Positions 12,460-15,339 of a stretch of DNA of 64,000 nucleotides are shown one piece after another. The position numbers and the translations under genes are program-made. How positions within the stretch are numbered: position 1 is the first letter of the stretch; each line of letters starts with the position of its first letter. The stretch comes from Candidatus Gastranaerophilales bacterium (GTDB lineage: Bacteria > Cyanobacteriota > Vampirovibrionia > Gastranaerophilales > Gastranaerophilaceae). Below the pieces are notes generated by a model. It was given only the letters and a program-made list of their open reading frames with translations. It was not told where the DNA came from and did no database searches. The stretch is taken from contig CANQLJ010000005.1 of assembly GCA_947624685.1 (NCBI GenBank), positions 1 to 64,000 of the forward strand, read 5' to 3'.

Positions 12460-12930
12460 ATGGAAATAAAGACAACACTTAATAAGCCATATACCGAAAA
12501 ACAAAGATTAAATTTTATTATTGCATTTAATCATCTAAAAGGATATACCATAAAAGAAACCGAAAACACTCTTGAGGCTTGGGGGTTGACGCAGGAAGAA
12601 AAAAAACAAGCCGAAAAAGAGCGCATTAATATGCTCTCTTTAACAAAGCGCGAAGTCTTTTTGGCACTCTATAAGGCAAAAGGAATAACCCCCGATATTG
12701 TTAAATCTCAAATAACAGATCCAACGGCGTTGATTGAATTTGAATATGCAAATGAATATTATCGCGGAAATCCTCTTATTGATTTAATCGGCGAAAAATT
12801 GGGCTATACGAGCGATGAGCTTGATTATTTATTTTTAAATAAGGAATTGCCTCAAAAGCAAGAGCCTAAACCCGAACCAAGCGAGATAGAAGGAAAGGAA
12901 GGGAATATGGCAGTTGAAGAAAAGGATTAG
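12460..12930 (+). CDS. Hypothetical phage protein
   Basis: 156 aa, collinear with tail module. Confidence 0.6.
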   Translation: MEIKTTLNKPYTEKQRLNFIIAFNHLKGYTIKETENTLEAWGLTQEEKKQAEKERINMLSLTKREVFLALYKAKGITPDIVKSQITDPTALIEFEYANEYYRGNPLIDLIGEKLGYTSDELDYLFLNKELPQKQEPKPEPSEIEGKEGNMAVEEKD

Positions 12931-12956
12931 ACAAACAGGAATAATTACAATATAAT
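12928..12956 (+). promoter_or_regulatory. Near-consensus sigma70-like promoter
   Basis: TAGACA (12928-12933), 17-bp spacer, TATAAT (12951-12956). Confidence 0.75.
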
Positions 12957-12961
12957 CGTTT

Positions 12962-13165
12962 ATAGGGTAAGTACCTAACCCCCGCCGTCACAGACAATTT
13001 ATGAAGAATTGAAGCGGAAAGGGGGTGAAAAGATGAATAAAAAACATATAAAAAGTGCTATCAGAGCACTGATAACACTTTTAAAGTTTATTTACTTTAT
13101 CTTATAGGGTATGAAGCGAAGCTCTAAGGAAGTACCATTTCTTTAGGGCTTCCCCCTATATTGTT
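12962..13165 (+). ncRNA. Putative structured ~200-nt RNA carrying a microORF
   Basis: Promoter upstream; 14-bp stem with one mismatch (13051-13064/13069-13082); 13-bp stem (13119-13131/13139-13151); ACCCCC upstream vs GGGGGT in SD; 5' TATAGGG vs 3' CCCTATA. Confidence 0.5.
13033..13107 (+). CDS. 24-aa hydrophobic/cationic peptide MNKKHIKSAIRALITLLKFIYFIL
   Basis: ATG after AAAGGGGGTGAAAAG; below the track length cutoff. Confidence 0.45.
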   Translation: MNKKHIKSAIRALITLLKFIYFIL

Positions 13166-13233
13166 ATTATTTATCATATTCCCGTATTTGTCAAGATATA
13201 ACAGGCAAAGTTGTTTGTATTGGAGTATTAAAA

Positions 13234-14568: not shown

Positions 14569-15339
14569 ATGAGACTTAAAAAAGGTTTTACACTTGCCGA
14601 AATTCTAATCGTATTGATGGTTATCGGTGTAATTGCTACTTTGACGGTTCCTACAATGATGAAAGGTGTCACAGAGGCGCAATTAAAGACTAGTTATAAA
14701 AAGGCTTATAACACTATTGCAAACTTCGCTGCAATGGAAAGGGTGTCCGGTGCTTTGCCTTCAAGAGCAACAGAAAAAAGTATTGCCGGTATGTATCAAT
14801 CTTTAAACGGTGCTCTATCGGTTACAACTTTTGCTCAACATTCACTTAACAAAGGTGTAACTATAGGTGCAACATTTAGCCCCTGTGTTACATATGACAA
14901 AGATACAATCGGAGCGCATGATGTTGATTGTAAAGGTGCAACATTAACTTTAGGCGGTGCTGATACCGGTGCATCAGGCGGCCCGCAAGAGGATTCGGTA
15001 ACTTGGATTATCACTGAAGATAACTTAGCTTATACTGTTCTTCCCGGCGGAAGCGGTGAGGATAAAAACTGTTCTACAAAACAAGTTATCGCAGCTCAAG
15101 ATTCGGATCAAGAAGCAGCAAACCTATCATGTGCTGTTGTTGTAGTTGACGTTAACGGTTTATCAAGAGGCCCAAATACATTCGAATCACAAGGTCTTGG
15201 CAATGCAGGACTTGATGCCGGAGTTAATCTTGATGCAATTACGGGCGACTTATATAAAATCTACTTAGGTTCTGACGGCGGTACGGCCGGACCTCGCTCC
15301 GCTACCGTTACAGGCAGAATCGCTGCTGATTTAAAATAA
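14569..15339 (+). CDS. Type IV pilin-like / prepilin-type cleavage-methylation domain protein
   Basis: 'KKGFTLAEILIVLMVIGVIATLTVPTMM' prepilin motif. Confidence 0.92.
   Translation: MRLKKGFTLAEILIVLMVIGVIATLTVPTMMKGVTEAQLKTSYKKAYNTIANFAAMERVSGALPSRATEKSIAGMYQSLNGALSVTTFAQHSLNKGVTIGATFSPCVTYDKDTIGAHDVDCKGATLTLGGADTGASGGPQEDSVTWIITEDNLAYTVLPGGSGEDKNCSTKQVIAAQDSDQEAANLSCAVVVVDVNGLSRGPNTFESQGLGNAGLDAGVNLDAITGDLYKIYLGSDGGTAGPRSATVTGRIAADLK

Follow-up and report, generated by a model that had tools for sequence, protein, structure and literature searches.

Type I toxin–antitoxin (TA) systems had, according to a 2025 paper, previously been known only from Proteobacteria, Firmicutes, and Tenericutes, and msoT1/msoA1 of Microcystis aeruginosa is reported as the first cyanobacterial candidate (PMC12390103). 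Their hallmarks are a gene for a small and, as a rule, hydrophobic peptide, equipped with a promoter and Shine-Dalgarno (SD) sequence of its own, and an antisense gene overlapping the toxin mRNA. Here we describe an element bearing the first of these and, on sequence evidence, the second (an antisense promoter and terminator), located at positions 12928–13194 of the window, by which we mean the whole stretch of 64,000 nucleotides (nt) that was analysed, on the prophage-bearing contig CANQLJ010000005.1. We put the probability that this element is a convergent type I TA module carried by a prophage at roughly 0.8, a reading supported by homologues, intact open reading frames (ORFs), covariation, a fixed antisense promoter, an antisense-specific hairpin, tandem arrays, and phage carriage. 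The family to which it belongs consists of real, conserved, and new type I TA-like modules, a new version of a known kind of system. In the open-licence literature we found no type I system described in Gastranaerophilales and, for Melainabacteria, only a general cyanobacterial review; the family extends type I anatomy to these non-photosynthetic cyanobacterial relatives of the gut.

The closest working analogies appear to be par of pAD1 (Fst–RNA II; Fst/Ldr family) in Enterococcus faecalis and bsrG/SR4 in Bacillus subtilis. With par the family shares convergent promoters, a toxin mRNA of ~200 nt, a tiny hydrophobic peptide, an SD within a local 5′ stem-loop, an mRNA 5′ end held by an intramolecular helix (here by energy only), and short direct repeats transcribed in both directions, and, as a further likeness, par occurs in plasmid, phage, and chromosomal copies (PMC7472228). 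It differs in that no homology to Fst, a toxin marked by a PxxxG motif and a charged tail, was found, the peptides matching no Pfam or NCBIfam family and PxxxG being absent from those listed; in an antisense-specific terminator inside the ORF in place of the shared bidirectional terminator of par; in a predicted antisense RNA of ~120 nt against ~40 nt for RNA II (PMC7472228), with a repeat of only 6–9 nt; in its occurrence outside the Firmicutes; and in a single chassis that carries four or more unrelated peptides. Like the element in the window, bsrG/SR4 and txpA/RatA are prophage-borne, and their antitoxins base-pair with a 3′ portion of the toxin mRNA, at a distance from the SD, which there too lies in a local hairpin; RNase III decay is documented in these systems, and in bsrG/SR4 decay acts together with effects on the SD (PMC6562991). 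Their toxins are longer and different, and neither sequence or structure similarity to them nor any toxin family or Rfam match was detected.

The first-pass annotation of this DNA had likened the element to hok and aapA. A tiny toxin and a structured mRNA with 5′–3′ long-distance pairing are indeed shared with aapA/IsoA of Helicobacter and with hok/Sok (PMC6733600), and that pairing is predicted across the family; release of the SD by 3′-end processing is a difference, as sequestration is local here in the energy model and the long-distance pairing does not control access to the SD, so the element is no simple copy of either. The msoT1/msoA1 system shares the phylum Cyanobacteria, which also includes Gastranaerophilales, and is set apart by its photosynthetic host and by a toxin described as having two predicted transmembrane helices (PMC12390103).

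A conserved family in Gastranaerophilales

A DNA search of 58 related genomes returned homologues in nine of them at 71–84% identity, several in tandem ~300 nt apart, and of the 30 stretches returned by a pattern scan of the genomes of 85,462 species, almost every one came from a Gastranaerophilales or Melainabacteria assembly or a gut bin. Covariance models of the 3′ region (R1) and the 5′ untranslated region (UTR; R2), built from 30 and 32 copies, respectively, matched 152 (R1) and 156 (R2) of 387 Gastranaerophilales genomes (~40%), with up to nine copies per genome and almost all matches within one family of the order. The single match outside the order in a sample of the phylum was weak (E = 1.5e-4) and is probably a chance hairpin. 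An R2 match adjoins the R1 match in nearly all loci picked by R1 alone, and pairing of the two segments defined the 146 distinct copies used below. No Rfam 15 family matched the element at gathering or relaxed thresholds; weak hits to mir-17 and the L10 leader were rejected as chance hairpin matches, and plasmid hits as short chance matches. The Gastranaerophilales element is a conserved, multi-copy, often tandem family that was previously undescribed. Standard annotation misses this widespread family because its ORFs span only 20–34 codons, and the two models and the peptide set are now usable for annotating gut phages and uncultured genomes.

The ORF is intact in 134 of the 146 distinct copies, is nearly always preceded by a recognisable SD, and encodes mostly hydrophobic peptides; that of the window has 24 residues and is hydrophobic and basic. 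Four classes were distinguished, with corrected counts of 75 (A, typically MTKEIIKTVITVIITVLKIIIIWL), 21 (B, MIDKIIMLLLAIAVVVIALKMLIS), 26 (C, MKLGFYLVFDVLIKTLKEKAPELELLELFLNS), and 12 (D, MKFCITEKALWLILLIIIALIFTK); the per-class figures on hairpin strand, dN/dS, class exchange, and promoters carry a small error from two copies mislabelled by the automatic class assignment. Searches of Pfam, PHROG, and NCBIfam with peptides of all classes returned nothing significant. Values of dN/dS were 0.68 (A), 0.70 (B), 0.33 (C), and 0.30 (D), and are probably overestimates because the overlapping hairpin described below depresses the synonymous rate.

A predicted antisense gene with its own promoter and terminator

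Every feature reported by the first-pass annotation lies where it had placed it (Table 1), but its statement that there was no clear antisense promoter was wrong, as the minus strand of the window carries both a promoter close to consensus and an intrinsic terminator with a U-tract. Just past the 3′ end, on the antisense strand, the copies carry either TTGACA-17-AATAAT or TTGAAA-16-TATAAT, with a mean best match of 10.85/12 against 7.80 in dinucleotide shuffles (standard deviation of the set mean 0.06). In 114 of 126 copies, the −10 box stops exactly 6 nt short of the antisense ATAGGG, and column conservation (n = 83) reaches 1.84 bits in the −35 box and 1.78 in the −10 box, compared with 0.86 in the spacer and 0.21 upstream. 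The sense promoter averages 9.2/12 against 7.95 in shuffles, its −10 box mostly ending 5–8 nt before AGGGTA. The antisense promoter is thus on average the better match to consensus (10.85 vs 9.19), as would be predicted for an antitoxin produced in excess.

The hairpin within the ORF, noted in the first-pass annotation, has 14 base pairs, one mismatch, and a 4-nt loop, and the mismatch is C–A in the sense RNA and G–U in the antisense RNA. Since a G–U pair in one RNA is an A–C mismatch in the RNA of the opposite strand, such wobbles distinguish the strands, and class A hairpins contain 111 that pair in the antisense only and 16 that pair in the sense only. Among the 134 copies of all classes, the hairpin is stabler on the antisense strand in 117 and on the sense strand in nine, counts that come from related, non-independent sequences and from a hairpin finder that captured the large-loop hairpins of class D poorly; the result repeats across the unrelated classes. 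The 3′ UTR hairpin is reversed, being stabler in the sense in 127 copies and in the antisense in five. The ORF hairpins are far stabler than synonymous recodings of the same peptides (median antisense z of −3.0, −4.0, −4.4, and −4.7 by class), and are therefore selected beyond the coding sequence; in the window, a terminator search found three terminators against 0.2 in shuffles. We read the ORF hairpin as the intrinsic terminator of the predicted antisense RNA, which would cover most of the ORF and the 3′ UTR and folds with z = −4.7, and antisense regulation of the peptide mRNA is very likely.

Predicted structure of the mRNA

The first-pass description of a compact structured RNA holds: the window RNA has a folding energy of −70.2 kcal/mol, compared with −42.0 for shuffled sequences (z = −7.0; 0 of 200 shuffles), and the pairing of its SD with upstream CCCCC is borne out. 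Homologues conserve this pairing, the SD hairpin showing 51 double-change cells against 17.2 when shuffled and the 3′ hairpin 39 against 9.6, each matched in 0 of 500 shuffles and with sliding controls that collapse. Predicted pairing sequesters the SD by more than 50% in 97% of 121 copies. TATAGGG occurs both at the 5′ end of the element and just past the ORF, and the 3′ hairpin ends in CTTCCCCCTATA. Pairing of the 5′ GGG with the 3′ CCC has a mean predicted probability of 0.90 in the family and 0.41 in the window, where the GGG after the ORF competes for the same partner at 0.55, as had been proposed. The partners of this 5′–3′ contact, including the AGGGUA repeats at the 5′ end and after the ORF, are nearly invariant, and the contact is predicted by energy, without covariation support. 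In the energy model, exposure of the SD is 0.19 whether or not the last 30 nt are present; removal of the 3′ end frees no SD, and 3′-end processing is accordingly not predicted to activate translation.

Table 1. Features of the window element (window coordinates)
Feature	Position	Strand	Basis
Toxin-mRNA promoter, TAGACA-17-TATAAT	12928–12956	+	TAGACA 12928–12933, TATAAT 12951–12956; consensus match 11/12
Predicted toxin mRNA, ~200 nt, start (AU)AGGG	12962–13170	+	Promoter spacing, fold z = −7.0; ends predicted
Conserved 5′ UTR (model R2): 5′ GGGUA and two-part SD-sequestering hairpin 12978–13027	12964–13032	+	Covariation
Shine-Dalgarno GGGGGT, paired with upstream CCCCC	13021–13026	+	Sequence, fold; P(unpaired) 0.001 in window
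Class A peptide ORF, 24 residues, MNKKHIKSAIRALITLLKFIYFIL, proposed toxin	13033–13107	+	Homologous ORF intact in 134/146 distinct copies
Putative antisense intrinsic terminator hairpin inside ORF; U-tract to ~13040	13051–13082	−	Terminator search, strand energies, synonymous recodings
Conserved 3′ region (model R1): second AGGGUA repeat, covarying 3′ hairpin, CCCUAUA, T-rich tail	13102–13171	+	Covariation, R1 88.6 bits
Predicted antisense (antitoxin) RNA, ~120 nt, 5′-AUAGGGGGAAGCCC...	13040–13159	−	Promoter and terminator positions; ends predicted
Antisense promoter, TTGACA-17-AATAAT	13166–13194	−	Consensus match 11/12; position and conservation across family

Probable cassette exchange on one chassis

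At least four peptide cassettes, unrelated to one another, are found on what is nearly the same RNA chassis. A class A copy (L035) and a class C copy (L049) are 99% identical in the 5′ UTR and 98% in the 3′ UTR, with ORFs at 46% identity, which does not exceed the 54% background between classes. A tandem array (L051) consists of C, A, and C cassettes, its A copy being 91–94% (5′ UTR) and 90–94% (3′ UTR) identical to the two C copies, and another (L006/L031) consists of A, B, and B cassettes. On the UTR tree, class changed at least 29 times against a shuffled mean of 55.6, a rough count given that the tree comes from short sequences.

We lean towards regarding this as a cassette type I system, in which unrelated toxin ORFs, each along with the antitoxin terminator hairpin, are swapped in and out of one conserved antisense-RNA chassis of Gastranaerophilales, so that specificities are exchanged in a single recombination event, the modules diversify in the manner of polymorphic toxins, and genomes come to hold tandem arrays of different toxins. 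Because the antisense terminator would lie inside the ORF, exchange of the ORF would move toxin and antitoxin specificity together. Our search of the open-licence literature found no description of cassette exchange in type I systems, which is no proof of absence. With toxins that are interchangeable, how antisense antitoxins gain new specificity becomes testable, a swapped ORF taking its terminator hairpin and the greater part of the pairing region with it.

Genomic setting and phage carriage

In the window, the element lies between a tail-fibre gene with a chaperone-like gene (phrog_6034) on one side and, on the other, a DUF1353 gene (phrog_1158), an XhlA-like ORF, and an M15 endolysin gene (phrog_894), that is, between tail genes and the lysis cassette, in agreement with the first-pass location. 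A copy occupies the same position in Dulem virus 31, a complete gut phage (PP511318.1; L209): tail genes lie ahead of it, DUF1353 and a peptidoglycan-recognition endolysin follow it, and its peptide ORF (MNNVTIKIAITVIIAILQIILHCL) is left unannotated in the record. Phage carriage is known from this one GenBank phage and from prophage loci; the window and four other loci have phage tail genes ahead of the element. Across 110 placed loci, the neighbours form 383 clusters, mostly of host genes (e.g., deformylase, LeuRS, and proline-biosynthesis-like genes), and the element sits between convergent genes in 46 of the 92 loci with both neighbours known.

Interpretation and alternatives

The anatomy of the family, comprising its structures, ORF, and antisense promoter and terminator sequences, is close to certain, and toxicity of the peptide is likely. 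Transcription, pairing, decay, and toxicity, all of which we infer, would proceed as follows. The plus-strand promoter would yield an mRNA of ~200 nt for the small peptide, whose translation would be restrained by the local hairpin locking the SD and by the 3′ CCC holding the 5′ GGG. The stronger-looking minus-strand promoter just downstream would constitutively produce an antisense RNA of ~120 nt ending inside the peptide ORF, and its duplex with the distal ORF and 3′ UTR, for which loops and the AGGGUA repeat at the mRNA 5′ end may serve as nucleation sites, would silence the mRNA and expose it to RNase III. Upon loss of the prophage or locus, or a drop in antisense synthesis, translation of the longer-lived structured mRNA would set in, and its peptide product would damage the membrane. 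Three observations weigh against this account: the predicted antisense RNA leaves the SD outside the overlap, so repression must be indirect; dN/dS near 0.7 in classes A and B, though biased by the hairpin constraint, indicates only weak purifying selection; and class C is less hydrophobic (mean of the maximum 15-residue hydropathy 1.34), so that not all cassettes resemble membrane toxins.

The same anatomy would serve an antisense-controlled, non-toxic regulatory membrane micropeptide, such as a stress-induced modulator of membrane proteins, and some of the peptides are only moderately hydrophobic; we nonetheless consider this unlikely, as the multi-copy, tandem, and patchy occurrence, the exchange of peptides, and the phage carriage are more in keeping with an addiction-type module than with a housekeeping regulator. 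The first-pass annotation had offered, next to the phage-borne type I toxin that conservation, covariation, and above all the putative antisense promoter and terminator now support, an RNA-regulated lysis peptide. A pinholin-like lysis accessory under RNA control would suit the copies of the window and Dulem virus 31, flanked as they are by tail and DUF1353/endolysin genes, but most of the loci sampled are chromosomal intergenic regions of an ordinary kind that lack phage lysis genes, which argues that the element is not a lysis gene, and neither a conserved antisense promoter nor class swapping would be expected of one; this explanation is therefore very improbable. Least credible of all is a repeat, either structured and non-coding or miniature and mobile, that has inverted TATAGGG/CCCTATA ends and an incidental ORF: its multi-copy, dispersed occurrence, inverted ends, and strong structure would be accounted for, but not the high proportion of intact ORFs, the SD and start and stop codons kept across four unrelated classes, dN/dS below 1, or the conserved promoters outside the inverted ends.

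Divergent and decaying copies

In addition to the window copy, the same genome has two divergent relatives, a variant on contig C41 (4067–4135, minus strand; L189) with the class D-like peptide MQIVLNEKELIVIIMIILALTH and a weak-scoring variant on contig C15 (37507–37585, minus strand; L190) with a class D-like peptide ending in ISEKALFLILLIIIALKYLLS. Both have a TTGAAA-16-TATAAT antisense promoter, seen by eye, and a different 3′ hairpin (AGGGY...GCCCTTTT), and they apparently represent a second type of chassis. Some copies, among them three of classes C and D (L027, 4220–4444; L250; L251), have a frameshifted ORF on an intact chassis and are apparently decaying toxins that retain the RNA parts. 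At two loci (L104 and L106), nothing but tail-fibre and chaperone genes and the module was observed in the interval from a pheA-like to a tyrS-like gene, which is probably what remains of a phage that has retained the module. One copy (L040, JAMPCZ010000032.1) is on a contig labelled Muribaculaceae (Bacteroidota), either through horizontal transfer or, with greater probability, because a Gastranaerophilales contig was misbinned. PP511318.1 is filed under Microviridae, yet its circular genome of 35.8 kb has tail and baseplate genes, and the assignment looks wrong. Directly after the lysis genes of the window, at 14569–15339, is a prepilin-like ORF (MRLKKGFTLAEILIVLMVIGV), and a similar-looking ORF family adjoins several other copies of the element.
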